This document shows, in pieces, positions 12,626 to 21,385 of a DNA stretch of 53,518 nucleotides. A program made the translations under genes and the position numbers. Numbering within the stretch: position 1 is the stretch's first letter; each line of letters begins with the position of its first letter. Where the stretch lies: the NCBI GenBank assembly GCA_009839745.1, contig VXPE01000005.1, positions 3,261-56,778 on the forward strand. The letters are read 5' to 3'. A model generated the notes under the pieces. That model worked only from the letters and a program-made list of their open reading frames with translations. It was not told the DNA's origin and did no database searches. The DNA is from Candidatus Poribacteria bacterium. GTDB lineage: Bacteria > Poribacteria > WGA-4E > WGA-3G.

Positions 12626-15187
12626 TCACTCAGTATTCAAACGAGCTGATATTTCCAGAAATTCCTGTTCGCTGAATACCAACTGGAAGATGCCTTGCCG
12701 TCTGGGACTGTCGTAGACGACCATTCTACCGGCGGTGTTGAATGCGCCTTCAAGTGTTTCCAATACCTTTCGCTTATATTCGGTGTCAAGATTGCCTTCG
12801 AGGTGCTCACCCTTTGTGTCAAAAATCAAGACGCGCGTTACGCCCGCGATGTCATTCGTCATGGCGACAAAGTCAGGGTAAATGCGTCCGCGTTTCCAGC
12901 CTTGCAAGTAGTACTCACCCCGTTGACGCGCCGCGACTCGATGCCACCATTGCAGTGCTCTTTCTTCATCAAGGTAATACGCGAATTTCTTTTCCAATTC
13001 GCTATCGAATTGCCGCTCAAAAACGGATTCAAAGAGGCTTAACTGCAGAGGCTCATAATCTCTTCTTAAGAGAGGTCTGTCCTCTCGAACCTGTATGTTG
13101 TAACTATCCACCATCCGATAGTTCGGTTCTCGTGTCTCCAAGTCAAAGCGGATCTCATCTTGGTCCAATTTCCTGCGGAAGACCTGTTCTGCTTGCCTCT
13201 CGACTTCGCTTTTTACATGTTCCCGCAGCATATATGCGAGGTAAGAACGCCGGTCATAGATGTCTGCTTCGGTGTTCCCTTCTGCGCTAAGGCGTTCGTG
13301 CAGCTGCTGTGCGATACGAGCCGCTTGCCAGAGATTTGGCATAAGGTCGGACAGACGGCGTGCGAAATCGGAAATGTTGACAGTTTTATCAATATAGGGT
13401 TCTTGCTCGGGACGGAAAACAGGAGCGACCTCACCCATATCAACTGTTGCGGATTGCCGTTGGACACGCTGCGGGGCAGATGATCGTGGATCGGGAGGTT
13501 CGATTGCTGACCAATCTATATGCGGTAGGATGTGTGCTTGGTAATTAAGCTGAATCCATCTATTACCATCTCTATGGCGGACAACGGGCAGGTAAATCTC
13601 CGAATTTTGGAACGGGCTCCGACGTTGGACTGTCTGCTGTTGGACCTCTTGCGGTGCGCTCTCTTGTCGTGAATCCGACGCGCCCATCACTTCATCGCCT
13701 AAACCTGTCAATCCCTCCGATTCCAAGCCATTCTTCACCTGCGTGACGACGGCACCGACATCGACATTATTGCAATAGACGTAGCACTGATCCAGTGATT
13801 CTCTACCGGTGAGTTGGGCATGCGGTTGCCGCATCACGCGCCCGACGAGTTGTGTAATTGCCCGTTGTGCTTGGGTATTGTCGAGCATCACCAAGAGATA
13901 AGCGAAAGGACAATCCCAACCTTCCATCAGTGCGGATTTTGTGATGATCCAACGCACCTGCGAAAATTCGGAGAGTAGATTTTCCCTGCCGAGTTCATCG
14001 TTCTCAGCGGATTTGACGCGGACTGCATCCGAAGGCACACTAAGGTTCTGTGTGAGATACTCCCGGACATCCTCAGCGTGGATGCGCTCATTGTCTCGTT
14101 GATCCCTGCCAGTTCGCTCCACCCGGACAACAGCGATCGGGCGGACATACCGTCCCGTGCTGTTCTCATACGATTTCGCCTCGGTATCAAGGCGTTCCAG
14201 TTCGTCAGCGGCTTGGCTGAGGGTTAATTGCCACTCAGCATTCGGAAACGATGTCACTTGCACCGGTAGCTTAATCATCTCCTCTTTTTTCAGGTCGGGT
14301 CCCTCAATATCGACAAGTAGATTGCTGATGCCGCGGTTGGGGGTGGCAGAGAGTTCAATTACTATGCGTGGATCGAGGCGGTTGATGGATTTGGCGAATT
14401 CTTCGTTCGCTTGCCGATTTCTCGCGCCGTAAGCCTTGTGTGCCTCGTCCAGAACAACAATGGGACGGAGCATCTTGAAGACGTTAAATAGGCTCTGTTT
14501 GACGAGTCCACCTTCCGTGTGGCACTCCAGATCGGGGTATTCATTTAGCAGACGGGTGTTGCCGAAGATATCGTCGCTGTCGGGGTAAAAACTGGGGTAG
14601 CGTCCGCTATCCCGGAACATACGGAGGAACTCCCTGCCTTTCTGTCGGTTGGTTGCTGGGAGCATGAGCAGCATGACACAGAGATAATTGGCGATGTCGT
14701 CTCTGTTGAAGGTATCCTCCTTTTCCAGCATCTTGACACGACCTGCGCTCGCCCGATTCAACATCTTACGGTAGGGGTGTCGTTTGTCCCATAAGGCGAC
14801 TTTGGTTTGATTATAGATCGCCTTGCTTGGCACAACCCAGAGGACCAGACCTCGTTGCCACGGGAGGCGTTCCAGTGCTGCAGCGGCGAGCAAGGTTTTA
14901 CCGCCACCTGTTGGCACTTTAAAACAGATATGTGGGACAGGACGGTTTGCCTCGTCGGTGCGGTCAACGTATTCGCCTGCGGTTGCTGCGACACCGCCGT
15001 TGCCTTTTAATTTTTGCCATGCAGCTTTCGGGTAATTGCGCAGTTCATCGGGGATCGGAATGTCGGTCGGTGCCTGTCTGAACATTTCGATCATCATTTC
15101 TAACTCACGTTGTGTATCTTCAAGTGCTTCTAACCAACGAGCCAAAGCGTCAAGTGCACCGCGTTGATATTCCTTTAATTCCAGCAT
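12626..15187 (-). CDS. Type III-like restriction enzyme Res subunit (SF2 helicase with nuclease domain)
   Basis: The 853-residue protein carries superfamily 2 motifs: Walker A VPTGGGKT (residues 91-98), DEAH box VVLDEAHKAYG, motif III LSATPNRG, and the motif VI region QLVGRVMRQP. A C-terminal segment IYPDFVAM...VLIFDTKGEHL has the spacing of a PD-(D/E)xK nuclease core. This order is that of the Res subunit of type III restriction enzymes, which translocate on or cut DNA together with Mod. It is the last gene of the operon, 12 bases after the small membrane-protein gene and close to the mod gene (15701-17353). Target sequence and activity are unknown. Confidence 0.88.
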   Translation of the reverse strand: MLELKEYQRGALDALARWLEALEDTQRELEMMIEMFRQAPTDIPIPDELRNYPKAAWQKLKGNGGVAATAGEYVDRTDEANRPVPHICFKVPTGGGKTLLAAAALERLPWQRGLVLWVVPSKAIYNQTKVALWDKRHPYRKMLNRASAGRVKMLEKEDTFNRDDIANYLCVMLLMLPATNRQKGREFLRMFRDSGRYPSFYPDSDDIFGNTRLLNEYPDLECHTEGGLVKQSLFNVFKMLRPIVVLDEAHKAYGARNRQANEEFAKSINRLDPRIVIELSATPNRGISNLLVDIEGPDLKKEEMIKLPVQVTSFPNAEWQLTLSQAADELERLDTEAKSYENSTGRYVRPIAVVRVERTGRDQRDNERIHAEDVREYLTQNLSVPSDAVRVKSAENDELGRENLLSEFSQVRWIITKSALMEGWDCPFAYLLVMLDNTQAQRAITQLVGRVMRQPHAQLTGRESLDQCYVYCNNVDVGAVVTQVKNGLESEGLTGLGDEVMGASDSRQESAPQEVQQQTVQRRSPFQNSEIYLPVVRHRDGNRWIQLNYQAHILPHIDWSAIEPPDPRSSAPQRVQRQSATVDMGEVAPVFRPEQEPYIDKTVNISDFARRLSDLMPNLWQAARIAQQLHERLSAEGNTEADIYDRRSYLAYMLREHVKSEVERQAEQVFRRKLDQDEIRFDLETREPNYRMVDSYNIQVREDRPLLRRDYEPLQLSLFESVFERQFDSELEKKFAYYLDEERALQWWHRVAARQRGEYYLQGWKRGRIYPDFVAMTNDIAGVTRVLIFDTKGEHLEGNLDTEYKRKVLETLEGAFNTAGRMVVYDSPRRQGIFQLVFSEQEFLEISARLNTE

Positions 15188-15199
15188 TGTATTATTTTG

Positions 15200-15616
15200 T
15201 CAGGGGGAACCTACAATCTTCTGTTGTTTGAGAGTTTCGATTTCCTGCCTGAGTTCTTCGATTTTTCGCTCTTGGTCGCGATCCTTTTTTCCGAGCCAAG
15301 TGGGGATACCAATAGCGGCGACAATAAGGGCGATGAGTCCATACGTTAGATTTGTAGCATGTGCGACCTGTTTTTCAACACCGTCCATCCGTCCATCTAA
15401 CCGTGCGACCCCTTCCTTTAGTGTGCCAATATCCGACTTTAGCGTGTCAATATTCGTTTCTATGGAACCGATCTCGGCTTTTATGGGTTTGAGTTCCTCT
15501 TTAATTTCTTCCTTGACGATCAAGCGGATCTTATTGAGGTCTGCCTCGGTCAACGCTGCGCCTGCTGGCATTGCGGTTGCAGAAAGAAGTATCAAGAGGA
15601 CAAGAATGGTTTTCAT
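15200..15616 (-). CDS. Small exported coiled-coil protein with one membrane segment, between mod and res
   Basis: Not a recognised family. Using the ATG at 15616 (GGAG eight bases upstream) it has 138 residues: a signal peptide (MKTILVLLILLSATAMPAGA), a heptad-rich region (about residues 22-88), a hydrophobic helix (about 91-111, LTYGLIALIVAAIGIPTW) and a charged coiled-coil tail. The longer frame from 15667 would mask the signal peptide. It lies between mod and res on the same strand, 12 bases before res. An envelope-located partner of a cytoplasmic restriction system is unusual. It may be a membrane-acting component or a chance insertion. Confidence 0.7.
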   Translation of the reverse strand: MKTILVLLILLSATAMPAGAALTEADLNKIRLIVKEEIKEELKPIKAEIGSIETNIDTLKSDIGTLKEGVARLDGRMDGVEKQVAHATNLTYGLIALIVAAIGIPTWLGKKDRDQERKIEELRQEIETLKQQKIVGSP

Positions 15617-15700
15617 CGTGGTGTCTCCTTTTGGAGATAGTAAAACATATTTAGGCGTGGGTGTCAACGAAAAAAATGTAATGCTCGATTCCAGGGCTTT

Positions 15701-17353
15701 TTATCTTTCGTGCAGAGCATCGGGGAGTTGGCAGAATATAATGCCCATCTGTGTGAGTTCACGCTGACCGATGTAATTGCCAGCGGCATACACGATTGCT
15801 TTTCTACCGGTATCGCGGCTGGCATCGCGAATACGTTCTGCGCGTTCCAAGTTGAGGATAGCGGCGTTGCTGCGTAACCATTCAAGGTCGGGTTTGTAGA
15901 GGAGATAGTAGTCGTTTTCATCGTCGCTGTGGAAAAGTCCGTCCTCATTTTTTGCCCCCACTGTGTCCGCGCCTATGGAAGCACCAGAAGTCGTATACAA
16001 TAGGTTGGCGGCGAGTGCTGCGTATGAGGGCAACGCCTCTCCGGTGAGCATTGTTTCAATCTCAATCGGTTTCCCTAAGGTGCAATAGGTAAAGGAGCCG
16101 CCTAAGCCTTCGCGGAGGGCATTATCACGGGCATCGGGAACCCCGTTGATAACACGGCGGACCCGCTCGGCGGTGATGGTGTCGGCGTAGTCTTCACACT
16201 CAATGAGGATAAACTTCCGATTGCCGCCATCTTCTCTATTGAGGTCAAGAACGGCATGGGCAGTGGTGCCGCTACCAGCGAATGAGTCAAGAACAATAGT
16301 GTCATTTTTTCTTGATACACCTTCGGCAATCCCTATTAAGTTTGCGATCAATCTTGTAGGTTTAGGATTGTTGAACTCAAGGGCTGCGCTTTGGAAGACA
16401 GTCTGTAACTGCTTTGTTCCTTCATCTGTAGTCCCAGCAATATCTGCTAACATTAAATCGATTGGGACGATCCCTTTTTCTTCAGATTCACTTAGAAAAT
16501 TTTTAAGGCGGGGATAGCGCAAATTTCCGTCAAGTCCCCACCAAAGCCTATCTTTCGTAACATGTTTCTCATGGGTGCTTTGGCTGTACTTCCAAGCATG
16601 CGTAGGATGATTTACAGACTCTCCTGTATAGGGATTTGTTAACGGATAAACTAAATTTGGACGTTGTTCTTTTGTCGCAGGATTGACATACGAAGCAGAC
16701 ACCCAACTACCACGTGGGTCATTATCAGGATTAGAATATGTTTCATTAAGTTCTTCATTCCGCTTAACCCGAATGTGAGAAACAGCATCGGATTTTCTAT
16801 ACGCAATAACATGTTCACGTTGGTTTGAGAATAATTTGGCATTATTACTTCTACCATAGCGATGTTGCCAAATAATATCTGCAAGAAAGTTTTCATCTCC
16901 CAAAATTTCATCCATTAGCATCCGTAAATGATGGACTTCATTGTCGTCAATGGAGATGAAGATTATCCCATCGTCTGAAAGCAATTCTTTGAGCAGGTGC
17001 AACCTCGGCCACATCATGCAGAGCCATTTGTCGTGTCGTTCCAGGTCTTCGTTATCAACGGGTGCGTTCTCCGTGAGCCATTGCTGCATCACTGGACTGT
17101 TTACATTATCATTATAGACCCAGCCCTCGTTGCCAGTATTGTAGGGTGGGTCGATGTAGATGCACTTGATACGGTTGGCATAGCGCGGGAGCAAGGCTTT
17201 GAGGGCGTGCAGGTTGTCGCCGTGGATGATGAGGTTGTCGTCTGTGTCAGTCGGGTTGCAGGAGCGGGTTTTGTCGGGTTCGAGGGGGCGGTAAGGGACG
17301 GTGAGGTGGTGGGCGTAGATGTGTTGTTTTCCTTTGAATTCGAGTGTGGGCAT
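15701..17353 (-). CDS. Type III-like DNA adenine methyltransferase Mod subunit
   Basis: A 550-residue N6-adenine or N4-cytosine methyltransferase. The catalytic motif IV DPPYNTGN (residues 68-75) precedes the AdoMet-binding motif I DSFAGSGTTAHAVLDL in the C-terminal half, followed by FILIECEDYADTI; that order is the beta class typical of Mod subunits. LIIHGDNLHALKAL before motif IV is also typical. It modifies the recognition sequence and gives the Res partner its specificity. It starts 33 bases after the receiver gene, so modification, restriction and the two signalling genes appear to share one transcript. Confidence 0.92.
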   Translation of the reverse strand: MPTLEFKGKQHIYAHHLTVPYRPLEPDKTRSCNPTDTDDNLIIHGDNLHALKALLPRYANRIKCIYIDPPYNTGNEGWVYNDNVNSPVMQQWLTENAPVDNEDLERHDKWLCMMWPRLHLLKELLSDDGIIFISIDDNEVHHLRMLMDEILGDENFLADIIWQHRYGRSNNAKLFSNQREHVIAYRKSDAVSHIRVKRNEELNETYSNPDNDPRGSWVSASYVNPATKEQRPNLVYPLTNPYTGESVNHPTHAWKYSQSTHEKHVTKDRLWWGLDGNLRYPRLKNFLSESEEKGIVPIDLMLADIAGTTDEGTKQLQTVFQSAALEFNNPKPTRLIANLIGIAEGVSRKNDTIVLDSFAGSGTTAHAVLDLNREDGGNRKFILIECEDYADTITAERVRRVINGVPDARDNALREGLGGSFTYCTLGKPIEIETMLTGEALPSYAALAANLLYTTSGASIGADTVGAKNEDGLFHSDDENDYYLLYKPDLEWLRSNAAILNLERAERIRDASRDTGRKAIVYAAGNYIGQRELTQMGIIFCQLPDALHER

Positions 17354-17385
17354 AGAGAGATCTCTTTCTACGTAGGGTCGAGAAT

Positions 17386-18429
17386 TTAGGTAGTGTAGCG
17401 ATCAATAAAATCCTTATTGTCAATATCTGGTTGACCTTGTCGGGCATAATACGAGGAAAAGCGTGATACAATATCCTTTACAAAAGACGGAGATATCTGA
17501 ATTGTAGGTTTTCCGAATTTTCCGTCAAAAACGTCTTGGTCAAGAGTCGTTAGTCTTCTGAAATTGAGGATCCCACCCTGAAAAAAATCAGTCGGCGGGA
17601 GCCAATGATAGTAAGTGCGTCTATTAGCAGAAAGTTCGCTGACTCTGTTTTTACTTTTGCTACCGCCCAATATCTTCTCTACGCTTTCGATCTCAACTAA
17701 AAGGATGTGATCTGTGTTGAGCACACCGTTTTCTCCTCTGGGAACGAGATCACAGGCTGGGCTCAGGACAACGAACCATTGGTCATCTGCTGTTACTATA
17801 CTCCCGGTTGTAATTCTATCTAACACTGAAGGATACAAGTAAAATTCTTCAGGAAAGCAAAGTTTCTCGTCTTCCTCAAGAAATTGAATGAGGTGATTTA
17901 GAGCGTATCGGAGGAGTGCTTTCTCGGTTCGTTCTGAATCTGTTTCTGCATAGGATATCCAAGTGTTTATCTGCGGTAGAAGGTTTTTGAGGAAAACGTC
18001 ATTAAGTCGTTGTTCTATTAGACCTCTGCCTCCCATGATACGGGTGAGGCCCGTGTCATAAATTTTCTGGAACAATAGCAAATCGGATGTATAGATTCCA
18101 TCCGACCGACGACGCGTATGGATAATGGATGGGTGATCGACCACGTCCTCCGGGAAAGCTGTAACGAAGATAATAGGTATTCTGGTAAATGAATCACCGA
18201 GTTGGCGAACGATTTTATTTCCGCCATCTGCATCGTTGCCCAATACCAGATCGATAATTACACCGTCGTAAGATCCATCAATTTTGTTTGATGCTTCTGA
18301 GAGATTTGCTGCGGTATCGGGTTCAACACCTTGATTGTTTTCGTCGTCATTGAAAACTTCTACCGCCTCCTTAAAGGCCTCTCGTTGATCTTCTTCGTCT
18401 TCAATGAGTAGAATTTTCATTGCACTCAT
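17386..18429 (-). CDS. Response receiver protein with unassigned C-terminal domain
   Basis: The first 125 residues form a receiver domain: acidic cluster LIEDEEDQ (residues 8-15), probable phospho-acceptor D60 in VIIDLVLG, and the switch threonine T90 in IIFVTAFPEDV. The usual lysine is not obvious. The rest (about 130-347) matches no DNA-binding or enzymatic output domain known to me; it contains VVLSPACDLVPRG (about residues 223-235), then a beta-rich stretch with ILLVEIESV and a YYHWLPP segment. It overlaps the kinase gene by 29 bases (20 if the second ATG at 18420 is used); AGGAGG lies just upstream. Cognate to the kinase by position and probably its phosphorylation target. Confidence 0.8.
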   Translation of the reverse strand: MSAMKILLIEDEEDQREAFKEAVEVFNDDENNQGVEPDTAANLSEASNKIDGSYDGVIIDLVLGNDADGGNKIVRQLGDSFTRIPIIFVTAFPEDVVDHPSIIHTRRRSDGIYTSDLLLFQKIYDTGLTRIMGGRGLIEQRLNDVFLKNLLPQINTWISYAETDSERTEKALLRYALNHLIQFLEEDEKLCFPEEFYLYPSVLDRITTGSIVTADDQWFVVLSPACDLVPRGENGVLNTDHILLVEIESVEKILGGSKSKNRVSELSANRRTYYHWLPPTDFFQGGILNFRRLTTLDQDVFDGKFGKPTIQISPSFVKDIVSRFSSYYARQGQPDIDNKDFIDRYTT

Positions 18430-20593
18430 TTTCCTCCTCTACTTTCGGTTGGAGCCTGAAATATGCCCCTTTATCAGATTCAAAGGCTACTAACTCAAGA
18501 TCGTTGCGATCTGCGGCTTCTCCAGCTATGGCTAGTCCTAGTCCACTCTTGCTTCCGGGTTTAGTGGAAAAGTCAGGTTCAAAAATTACCTCGCTGTCAA
18601 TATGTGCTGCCTTAATCCCTGGTCCAGTATCGCGATAGTCGATATGAACAAGACAACTCCCTTCGGTCTTGATGTCGATCATGATTTTCCGTACTGGACT
18701 TTCTTTCGCATCAATCCAATAGAGACTATTGTCCACAAGATTTGTGAAAATTTCATAGATATCCTGATACCAAGCGGAAAATTTGAAGTGATCAGGACCG
18801 ATGACATTTGCAGACACATTGTGCAATTTCATCTCATGTTCAAAGACCAGAAGAGTGTCCTCTATCGTTTTCTTCAGTTCTAATAACTCCTTTGGCCCGC
18901 GTTTTCCTACTGCAAGCGGATTCAGTCTGCCAAAGAGTTTGTCGAAAACCTTGGCATTTCGGTGTATACCGTCAGCAATCCTCTCAATTTTCTCAAGCTT
19001 CACCGGATCCTTGGTTTTCTGAAATGATTTGCACCAATGCTTGAGAGTATGGGTCTGGTTGTTGAAGTAGGCAATAGGCTTGCTAGCTTCGTGAAGAATT
19101 ACACGGACGATTTTCCCTAGGACAGCTTGGGCTTGGTAGATAGCGACAGCCTCTCGAATTTCGTCAACCACCTTGTTTTTTGCTTCAGTATCTTGATTAA
19201 TAAGTTTAATGATTTCGTCAGTAGTTGTTTGGTCAACTGTCCTTTTGGTAAGTTGTGTTTGGACATTCTGTTTCAAGACATCAGACGAAAAAAGACTTTG
19301 CAGACTCTGTTCTACCCTAATGGCAGGTCGACTCAAACCCTCTTTTCTTCTGTAAATATAGCGCCGGACTTCAAGTTCTGTTAATACCTTCTCTGTGACT
19401 TTCTTTAATTGTTCAAACGCTCGATTTTCCCTGAGTCCGTCCCGGGCACTTTTTTCAATCAAACCGGACTGATCCTGGGACTGAATTTGGACGTATCCAA
19501 TTGCTTGATTACTGCCGATACAGCGAGTCGGGTTTTGAATACGACGCTCATTAAGTTTGAGCCAATCAAATTCGGCATCGCCTAGAGGTCGGATCCGGAA
19601 GCCATTTCGGTAAACAGCGATACCGTTATTTGCGTTTAGGAGCTGCCGTGCCTCTCTTTTTCTCACGTAGTTGCCTGATTCATCCGTAAGTCCGCGTTTA
19701 ATCAGGGAGGTAATGGCTTCCGCGTCGCGATCATAGACTCGGATATCAATGTCAAGTTCACCACAGCTCGTAGCCCCTTCAAAATCGAATAGAATCTGCT
19801 CATCTAGAATATTACGGGCTTTCTGCGATGTATAGGTCAGAACTCCTTTACCGTTGCTGCCAATGGCCCCTGAAATTTTATAGTCAAATAGATCTAGCAG
19901 AGGATATGGTTCAATGGTTTCCTTAATGTCCGCCATTCCAGGAAAACCTTCGACTGTCAAATGTATCTGGAACACATCGCTACTATCTTCATGACTAAAT
20001 GTGCTAATTGTAGGTGATGTTAGTTTCTTTAATTCAAACCGGAGTTTGTCGAACCGATCTTCATTCCAATCAACAAGAAGCTTGCTATCCCCATTTATAG
20101 TCAAGCACGTTCCTTGTGATTCAGAAACTTGTGTTGTTTTAACCAATACTTCTACATCATCTAGGTATTGACCCTTCTCAAAGTCTGACCATTCAATATG
20201 TACTGTAGTTTTCTCACCTTCGTCGGTAACCGTTTTAAGTGATAGATTCGTACCGAGAATCGATGCAGCATAGCGTCCTACCCCTTTACTTCCTTGTAGT
20301 GTTCGCCCAGAACGACTATGCTGCTTTTCTACCTTGTCCTGGGTTGATGGCACCAGCCACTTTTTGATGACATCATCTCTGGACATACCGTGCCCATGAT
20401 CAGAGATGACGATGGAATATTCGCTAAGGTTTGGAATCTTCTTAAATTCTACGTCCACCTGAGGTGAGTCGGCATCATAAGCGTTTTTTACTAGTTCAAT
20501 AACAGCGGCATAATTATCCTGAATGAGATCACGACCTATGGTGAGAATGTGTCGTCCCGCAGGTCTAATCTTATAGTTTGTGTTAGTGTTCAT
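18401..20593 (-). CDS. Double-GHKL protein: MutL/Hsp90-like ATPase fused to a histidine kinase
   Basis: The 730-residue protein (ATG at 20593; an upstream ATG at 20641 has poor spacing) has two ATP-binding modules. The N-terminal GHKL domain shows ELVKNAYDAD (about 33-42), DHGHGM and GSKGVGRYA, the Hsp90/MutL/MORC form. A transducer-like middle region follows (VYRNGFRIRPLG). The C-terminal half is a histidine kinase: H-box ILHEASKPI with probable phosphohistidine H501, N-box NLVDNS (618), DTGPGI (655) and GLGLAI (684). No membrane segment is visible, so it acts in the cytoplasm. It is the first gene of the kinase-receiver-mod-small protein-res operon. MutL/MORC-like ATPases associated with restriction systems have been described; this fusion with a kinase and receiver is the notable part. 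Confidence 0.85.
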   Translation of the reverse strand: MNTNTNYKIRPAGRHILTIGRDLIQDNYAAVIELVKNAYDADSPQVDVEFKKIPNLSEYSIVISDHGHGMSRDDVIKKWLVPSTQDKVEKQHSRSGRTLQGSKGVGRYAASILGTNLSLKTVTDEGEKTTVHIEWSDFEKGQYLDDVEVLVKTTQVSESQGTCLTINGDSKLLVDWNEDRFDKLRFELKKLTSPTISTFSHEDSSDVFQIHLTVEGFPGMADIKETIEPYPLLDLFDYKISGAIGSNGKGVLTYTSQKARNILDEQILFDFEGATSCGELDIDIRVYDRDAEAITSLIKRGLTDESGNYVRKREARQLLNANNGIAVYRNGFRIRPLGDAEFDWLKLNERRIQNPTRCIGSNQAIGYVQIQSQDQSGLIEKSARDGLRENRAFEQLKKVTEKVLTELEVRRYIYRRKEGLSRPAIRVEQSLQSLFSSDVLKQNVQTQLTKRTVDQTTTDEIIKLINQDTEAKNKVVDEIREAVAIYQAQAVLGKIVRVILHEASKPIAYFNNQTHTLKHWCKSFQKTKDPVKLEKIERIADGIHRNAKVFDKLFGRLNPLAVGKRGPKELLELKKTIEDTLLVFEHEMKLHNVSANVIGPDHFKFSAWYQDIYEIFTNLVDNSLYWIDAKESPVRKIMIDIKTEGSCLVHIDYRDTGPGIKAAHIDSEVIFEPDFSTKPGSKSGLGLAIAGEAADRNDLELVAFESDKGAYFRLQPKVEEENECNENSTH

Positions 20594-20896
20594 GATTCCC
20601 AATTTCCTTGAATCTTTCAGAAATCCTACATGCCCTTCCAAAAAGATCGAGATGATTAGGTTTACTGCTTATAACAAGATACTCCAATCATTCTTGCTAT
20701 AATGAACCCCCTGCATATTACAATTCGACGTTTAAATAAAAAGATGCTAAATTTATTTATAGTCTATTATACCTTAGAACCAAAATGGTATCAAACAGTT
20801 TCAAGAATACAACCGAACATGCCTGATTTTGGTTTTCTGACAGAAAAGAAGTGGAGAGACTAAGATTGTTTGCCCTATTAGCGCGTGGTTTAGGTC
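20594..20896. other. Leader and promoter region upstream of the kinase gene
   Basis: An AT-rich 303-base gap with no gene. It contains the promoter at 20766-20794 and, on the minus strand, about 165 bases of putative leader whose role is not evident. Confidence 0.5.
20766..20794 (-). promoter_or_regulatory. Sigma70-type promoter of the kinase-restriction operon
   Basis: Minus-strand TTGATA (20789-20794), 17-base spacer, TATAAT (20766-20771). A perfect -10 box with ideal spacing about 170 bases upstream of the kinase ATG, leaving a long untranslated leader. Confidence 0.65.
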
Positions 20897-21385
20897 TTAT
20901 TGCTCCCGTTCATCCGAATCAAAGGGCGAATCGAACTTTATGGATATTTTCCCTTCTTTGATTGACTGATTCAGTACTTCAATGTCTTCTTCCGTGAGAT
21001 GGGGTGGTTTTTCCATCGCTTTAATGAGACGTTGTGCAGCGGCATTTTTTCCCTTTTCTGTAATTCCTTTTACTCGTTTATCTCTTTGAAGTTTGGCATC
21101 CGCTTTTATCTGTTCGTGCGGAATCCCTCTAAGTTGAGAGGCAAGAAAACTAACACACTTACACATTTGCCCATTAGCATTGCTGAATTCAACCTCGTAT
21201 GCTTCGCCATTTGAAAGGATTTCAACGACTGTGCCGATGTCTCCACGCTTGAGATTATGCTCAGGGACATCTTGTGTGAGCGCGACGACATCCAGAAGTT
21301 TGATTTTGCCTTTTTCTGTAGGTTCGTGGTTGCGTTCAGGCACGCTATCTGTATTCAAGGTATTATCGGAAAATTTGTTTTTCAT
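20897..21385 (-). CDS. DUF4926-like domain protein with antitoxin-like tail
   Basis: A 162-residue soluble protein. Residues 28-75 (KLLDVVALTQDVPEHNLKRG, then DIGTVVEIL and YEVEFSNANG) resemble the small beta-barrel DUF4926 domain often found alone near toxin-antitoxin or mobile loci. The C-terminal third is acidic and helical (LTEEDIEVLNQSIKEGKI, FDSPFDSD), reminiscent of an antitoxin tail. It is a fusion of two short modules rather than the usual stand-alone DUF4926. Same strand as the restriction operon but separated from it by a promoter. The family call is by eye and tentative. Confidence 0.6.
   Translation of the reverse strand: MKNKFSDNTLNTDSVPERNHEPTEKGKIKLLDVVALTQDVPEHNLKRGDIGTVVEILSNGEAYEVEFSNANGQMCKCVSFLASQLRGIPHEQIKADAKLQRDKRVKGITEKGKNAAAQRLIKAMEKPPHLTEEDIEVLNQSIKEGKISIKFDSPFDSDEREQ

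Follow-up and report, generated by a model that had tools for sequence, protein, structure and literature searches.

Upstream of a type III restriction-modification unit in a Poribacteria genome lies a second, separate module, consisting of a histidine kinase with two GHKL ATPase domains (HK) and a receiver-effector protein (RR). Elsewhere this pair usually accompanies C5 cytosine methylases, and here it sits at the start of the methyltransferase gene mod as part of an inserted cassette whose own methylase gene has been lost. Gene order, HK-RR coupling, motif and residue conservation, the predicted fold of the RR output domain, C5-methylase linkage, cassette insertion and methylase loss are directly supported by the data described below. 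On balance, we lean slightly toward a two-module account in which the pair would serve a methylase system as its guard or restriction arm, acting through a toxin-fold effector switched by a phosphorelay. The DNA analyzed here, referred to as the window, is a stretch of 53,518 nt from contig VXPE01000005.1 of a Candidatus Poribacteria bacterium.

Organization of the locus

A previous sequence-only reading had described five genes in a row, with HK overlapped by RR. All five open reading frames are intact, lie on the minus strand, and occupy the place and order given there, together with the following neighboring elements.

20897..21385 (-): DUF4926 gene, upstream of the cassette
20766..20794 (-): TTGATA-17-TATAAT, a sigma-70-like promoter that derives from the methylase operon
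18401..20593 (-): HK, double-GHKL kinase, 730 aa from ATG 20593 (ORF from TTG 20641)
17386..18429 (-): RR, receiver-effector, 347 aa
17354..17368 (-): cassette/mod junction; homology with HK-free loci begins here or at the mod ATG
15701..17353 (-): mod, type III N6-adenine methyltransferase, 550 aa, with DPPY and FAGSG motifs
15200..15667 (-): small protein with signal peptide, coiled coil, and TM segment, encoded by an accessory gene between mod and res
12626..15187 (-): res, type III restriction subunit, SF2 helicase (TGGGKT, DEAH) with a C-terminal PD...DTK nuclease motif

RR overlaps HK by 29 nt, and the distances along HK, RR, mod, the small gene, and res amount to -29, 32, 33, and 12 nt; judged from this layout, the five genes are likely to form one transcript. 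The promoter proposed for it (20794-20766) is a good one by score, reaching 11 of 12 and ranking first among 19 candidates in the region, but that candidate number does not exceed chance (17.4 in shuffled sequences). The promoter stretch is conserved with the methylase promoter of relatives. GC3 differs along the locus, with 39% in HK/RR vs. 50–55% in mod/res.

Profile searches support the proposed double-GHKL architecture of HK, identifying an N-terminal HATPase_c_3 domain (paraMORC/HgiDII-like), a DHp-like segment that contains H501 (codon 19091-19093), and a C-terminal HATPase_c domain. Homologues favor translation from the ATG at 20593, yielding the 730-aa protein in which the histidine is numbered H501. 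Both ATPase domains are present in all 45 diverse HK relatives, and both ATPase sites as well as H501 are invariant (45/45). The HisKA profile does not match the window HK and matches only one of the 45 relatives. HK is devoid of known membrane domains, and HK-RR is a cytoplasmic signaling pair. The RR protein had been taken for a cognate receiver with D60 as phosphoacceptor; it matches Response_reg with an E value of 2e-5, below the Pfam cut-off, and the assignment is upheld by conservation of D60, T/S90, and K/R108 in each of 59 homologues, position 108 being R in the window and K in 50 of the 59. The conserved two-component residues are present, with the phosphoacceptor His and kinase core in HK, and the Asp, acidic pair, T/S, and K/R in RR.

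The type III assignment of mod and res likewise stands. The proteins contain N6_N4_Mtase (mod) and ResIII (res) domains, PADLOC identifies a type III MTase (1e-184) and a type III REase (1e-190), and a beta-class N6-adenine Mod is thus encoded together with an SF2-helicase/nuclease Res.

A type III unit that does not need the kinase

The mod-res unit is present in most genomes of the genus, often in multiple copies, whereas a true HK is found in 9 of 38. HK adjoins mod in 7 of 43 close mod homologues of the genus, a count that includes G026, where the locus is split over two contigs; direct adjacency alone gives 6. At the orthologous tatA site, genomes G023 and G034 harbor mod-res without HK-RR, and at the site beside genes for 293-, 478-, and 486-aa proteins, G035 carries res-mod and G021 carries HK-RR. 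HK-linked mods are scattered over the mod tree, their five rows requiring five changes, as many as shuffled labels do, and the window's mod groups as sister with the one from G013, a genome without HK. Co-evolution of HK-RR with mod-res was rejected on the basis of this tree and of pairwise identities.

The small protein had been read as an envelope-located member of the system. Copies of its gene that are 77% identical lie with mod-res in G013, G030, and G023, at loci showing no HK-RR, and in other relatives the same position is taken by a HicA-like/HicB-like pair or by no gene. We therefore rejected the small protein as a system component, and given the optional nature of the slot, a role in envelope signaling is unsupported; the space between mod and res seems to serve as an accessory position. 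At L021:2588-3111, and similarly at L022, L028, and L271, the HicA-like/HicB-like toxin-antitoxin pair of 66 + 107 aa lies between mod and res, and in relatives it overlaps the res start. The mod-(small)-res set is an ordinary type III unit, widespread in the Poribacteria genus, for which the kinase is not needed.

HK-RR is a module of its own beside C5 methylases

A profile-guided scan of bacterial and archaeal genomes yielded at least 566 HK relatives among candidate stretches, of which the best 80 were kept. An alignment-based scan of viral contigs added 65 HK loci; scanning the viral contigs with the single HK protein gave no match. The pair also resides on conjugative Campylobacter plasmids and on Enterobacter and Hymenobacter plasmids. 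Coupling of the two genes is widespread, 123 loci containing a gene for 330–520 aa that overlaps the HK stop or starts at most 28 nt away. More than 100 HK-RR loci were sampled, from many phyla, proviruses, and plasmids, and they usually lie beside a C5 methylase, often with Vsr. Neighbors were counted at the 44 genome loci whose flanks reach at least 5 kb on either side; 36 of them have a C5 methylase and 16 have Vsr nearby; mod occurs at one (a distant 980-aa match, L195) and res at none. The recurrence of a kinase-receiver pair with mod-res, as predicted from the window, is accordingly limited: the order HK-RR-mod is found at seven of nine HK loci within the genus, but none of the loci sampled outside Poribacteria has this mod-res beside HK-RR.

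Complete operons consisting of only HK/RR, with or without methylase/Vsr, account for 25 of 61, and a separate nuclease therefore seems unneeded. In line with this, a Pfam tally of HK-RR neighbors contains scattered restriction-modification nucleases (HaeIII, XhoI, HNH_2) and no constant nuclease partner. Because many loci combine it with a solitary methylase, HK-RR may provide such methylase systems with their restriction or abortive arm. Collectively, HK-RR is a module of its own.

Several individual loci illustrate its genomic settings. L204, a viral/proviral contig from IMG/VR, carries methylase-HK-RR-Vsr with an HK that is 62% identical to that of the window, and the module therefore travels on phage-like elements. 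At L019 (Hymenobacter plasmid), L152, and L186, HK-RR-methylase is joined to an ATPase-Z1-PDDEXK helicase system, which at L019 also includes AIPR. At L018, a Campylobacter coli conjugative plasmid, HK-RR adjoins an AAA ATPase and a cytosine methylase in convergent orientation; in this Campylobacter conjugative-plasmid family the two proteins are listed as an ordinary sensor kinase and an ordinary response regulator.

Methylase loss and cassette insertion at the mod start

Within the genus, the C5 methylase of the cassette (DCM) is restricted to 4 of 38 genomes and always lies directly upstream of HK, whose start it overlaps in all four (G003, G010, G024, and G026). No copy of such a methylase was detected in the window's genome at E<=1e-20. 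Two traces of the gene nevertheless precede HK in the window.

20609..20838 (-): remains of the lost C5 methylase gene, namely its promoter region and, in decayed form, its first ~26 codons (blastn, tblastn)
20594..20624 (-): methylase 3'-end remnant fused to the HK start; internal deletion scar, ~1.17 kb lost

The 230 nt from 20838 to 20609 are homologous to the DCM promoter and 5' end at L020, L021, and L023 (72–75%, blastn), and tblastn matches 20687-20598 to DCM residues 1-30. In this remnant the start codon reads ATA and the DLFAGAGG-type SAM-binding motif is eroded. Over the last 31 nt before the HK ATG, the alignment runs from the last ~12 DCM codons into HK (L020, L023). The window methylase has been lost by internal deletion.

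It could be argued that the window pair has become a non-functional leftover of a methylase cassette without its partner, as would fit the deleted methylase, its decayed remnant, the lack of such a methylase in the genome, and the HK of G028, which is split by a stop codon. We regard this as distinctly unlikely for the window itself, where the HK and RR frames are intact, every catalytic motif is conserved, and a good promoter is retained. The window pair may be coasting after methylase loss, or it may rely on Mod for self-marking. In G028 (L026:6446-9815), in addition to the split HK, RR is shortened and two mod 5' stubs flank the pair; HK-RR of this genome is a decaying cassette copy.

In HK-free loci, homology to the window begins 0–15 nt before the mod ATG, namely from 15 nt upstream at L269 and L276 and from the ATG itself at L268, L271, L272, L275, and L277. 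In G003 and G028, a truncated second copy of the first 53–61 nt of mod lies upstream of the cassette. The two genus HK loci that depart from the HK-RR-mod order (G021, G028) keep a mod 5' stub after RR, with mod-res itself missing. These observations are most simply explained by a promoter-methylase-HK-RR cassette that inserts at the highly conserved mod 5' end and regenerates an intact mod start. The homologous tail of the window's DUF4926 gene is found upstream of mod in several HK-free loci. At L271:12482-17195, and similarly at L273, L278, and L284, a 1.0–1.5 kaa NTPase/TPR-like protein is encoded directly upstream of mod in the absence of HK, followed at L271 by a gene for a PIN-domain-like protein of 150 aa. 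The C-terminal tail of the NTPase/TPR-like protein, AQRLIKAMEKPPHLTxEDIEALNQSIKEG, also occurs in the window's DUF4926 gene, and the arrangement looks like another interchangeable defense cassette at the mod start.

These data bear on the interpretation originally given to the locus, in which HK-RR is part of the type III system and RR phosphorylation controls restriction by Mod-Res. What speaks for it is the probable single transcript in the window, the genus loci in which HK-RR is followed by mod-res (seven of nine) or by a mod stub (the other two), and the intact HK-RR without methylase in both the window and G018. Moreover, all HK-RR loci of the genus are found at mod starts, a pattern that could also result from a functional link, and with its methylase gone, the window pair might by now serve the type III system or be decaying; both points count against the two-module account. 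Most mod-res loci nevertheless lack HK-RR, the pair is found beside C5 methylases and not this mod-res in all other phyla sampled, and the histories of HK/RR and mod are decoupled. Adjacency to mod and probable co-transcription follow from cassette insertion, and therefore no regulatory link is needed. We consider phosphorylation-controlled type III restriction improbable, and an abortive response, also suggested at the outset, survives as a property of the HK-RR module itself, not of the type III system.

The receiver carries a predicted MazF/CcdB-fold output domain

Since the full-length RR fold search was swamped by receiver domains, the C-terminal domain was modeled separately. Viral matches to full-length RR include PemK/MazF, which is an independent hint at the nature of this domain. 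RR is divided as follows.

Residues 1-131: REC domain, with the D60 codon at 18250-18252
Residues 137-185: two-helix linker
17386..17868 (-): output domain of predicted MazF/Kid/CcdB fold, residues 188-347

The full-length AlphaFold model has a pLDDT of 93.5, and the output domain folded alone reaches 92. In the PDB, the latter matches MazF best, with CcdB and Kid next (Foldseek E 5e-4), and superposition on MazF/CcdB gives Z 11.2 and an rmsd of 3.0 over 102 aligned residues (VIA-align). A structure search on this domain had been recommended in the initial reading, and it thus returned a defined fold. The same output domain aligns in distant RR groups with E values of 5e-13 and 5e-9, one of these groups including a protein with a sub-threshold Response_reg_2 match. 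Conservation is concentrated in the motifs P-x-C-D, P278, and R-x-G-x-P, with C226 and P278 in 59 of 59 homologues, G332 in 58, R330 in 55, P334 in 54, and D227 in 51.

The catalytic Arg/Thr of MazF are not evident in the RR motif alignment, and other residues stand in place of the RP motif that precedes the VVLSP strand. The PemK_toxin profile PF02452 matches no RR member (Pfam), the sequence profile of the output domain finds no match among PDB sequences, and hhalign against 17 PemK proteins is not significant, so that homology to MazF rests on the fold only. The models confidently place the output domain in a toxin fold shared with MazF/CcdB, with a different putative active site. As MazF catalytic residues are not apparent and both the PemK profile and the PemK comparison are negative, the domain may not be toxic. 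No MazE-like partner gene lies beside the window RR. A 225-aa receiver protein of the genus resembles only the REC part of RR (~44% identity); it is encoded at L027:5589-6266, L029:9014-9691, L030:11229-11906, and L031:2735-3412, with no adjacent HK found.

A different role for the output domain would be that of a protein- or nucleic-acid-binding adaptor, with HK-RR regulating C5-methylase restriction-modification genes instead of firing a toxin. Control of the expression or activity of such genes was proposed in 2021 for HEF_HK/Response_reg_2 pairs (PMC8011034), which have the same architecture and methylase linkage, and the apparently missing MazF catalytic residues along with the new invariant surface C226/D227/R330/G332/P334 would be compatible with it. 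Yet many loci offer no restriction-modification gene other than the methylase to be regulated, and the fold is that of a toxin and not of a known DNA-binding output domain. We judge an adaptor or regulator to be rather unlikely, albeit worth keeping in view.

Proposed mechanism

In the two-module account, mod-small-res would form one unit, and the upstream cassette, originally promoter-C5 methylase-HK-RR and now without its methylase, the other. The N-terminal paraMORC-like GHKL module of HK probably senses DNA or its methylation state. The C-terminal kinase domain, judged by its invariant motifs, would autophosphorylate H501, from which the phosphate would move to D60 of RR. In phosphorylated RR, the two-helix linker would be rearranged and the MazF/CcdB-fold output domain released, dimerized, or otherwise switched. 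The likeliest output would be growth arrest or inactivation of a target when methylase protection fails or foreign DNA enters; HK-RR would then be the arm of a cytosine-methylase system that guards or restricts. Phosphotransfer, signal, toxicity, defense, and any effect on the type III enzymes are steps that we infer. A more specific version, in which a phosphorelay drives HK-RR as the abortive or restriction arm of cytosine-methylase systems, the effector has a new active site, and the cassette spread in Poribacteria via type III mod starts, is put forward tentatively, as a possibility somewhat short of even.

If the output domain were a switchable effector, these widespread methylase-linked kinases would amount to an immune system whose output, triggered through classical His-Asp phosphotransfer, is a toxin-fold domain in place of a transcription factor. 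The role of these kinases becomes directly testable with three point mutants. The locus further documents how restriction-modification modules are stacked through cassette insertion at a conserved gene start.

Comparison with known systems

Similar methylase-linked kinase-receiver pairs were already known, published in 2021 and uncharacterized. Bellieny-Rabelo et al. 2021 (PMC8011034) described a HATPase_c_3+HEF_HK+HATPase_c kinase paired with a Response_reg_2 protein and linked to restriction-modification loci, with C5 methylases and Vsr as foremost partners. The window shares with these pairs a HATPase_c_3, DHp-like, and HATPase_c kinase beside a receiver-like gene, and its HK-RR relatives have the C5 methylases and Vsr in their neighborhoods. 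However, neither HK matches PF19191 nor RR matches PF19192 even at E<=10; HEF_HK (PF19191) matches 3 of 45 HK relatives and Response_reg_2 (PF19192) 1 of 46 receivers, a PF19192 search in the genomes of distant loci yielded one sub-threshold match only, and plasmid relatives found with an Acinetobacter RR are not members of the Response_reg_2 profile. As so few relatives match, we place the window pair, by sequence, in the same broad radiation and outside the published profiles. It also differs in that PMC8011034 reports no known domain beside the receiver, whereas here a MazF/CcdB fold is predicted, and in that the window pair adjoins type III genes after loss of the C5-methylase neighbor, which relatives retain. 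New in our analysis are the recognition, in confident models, of the output domain as a MazF/CcdB fold with different invariant residues, and the documented mode of insertion of a methylase-HK-RR cassette at the mod start.

The paraMORC GHKL ATPases described by Iyer et al. 2008 (PMC2292703) occur in restriction-modification operons with methylases, Vsr, SFII helicases, and AIPR. HK likewise has an N-terminal GHKL ATPase and a restriction-modification neighborhood, but in HK this module is followed by a kinase core that includes a phosphoacceptor His, and a receiver is coupled to it; receivers find no mention in that work. The N-terminal GHKL domain also matches BbrUII/HgiDII restriction enzymes (NF050001, E 6e-16), the match covering residues 43-182 only, at 58 bits vs. 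a cut-off of 550, with the rest of the enzyme unmatched. With the MazF/PemK/Kid and CcdB toxins, RR shares the predicted fold of its output domain (Z about 11), which is here fused to a receiver, has other conserved residues, and shows no PemK profile match. Compared with type III restriction-modification systems, mod and res are typical, and the only unusual features are the cassette upstream and the accessory gene between mod and res.
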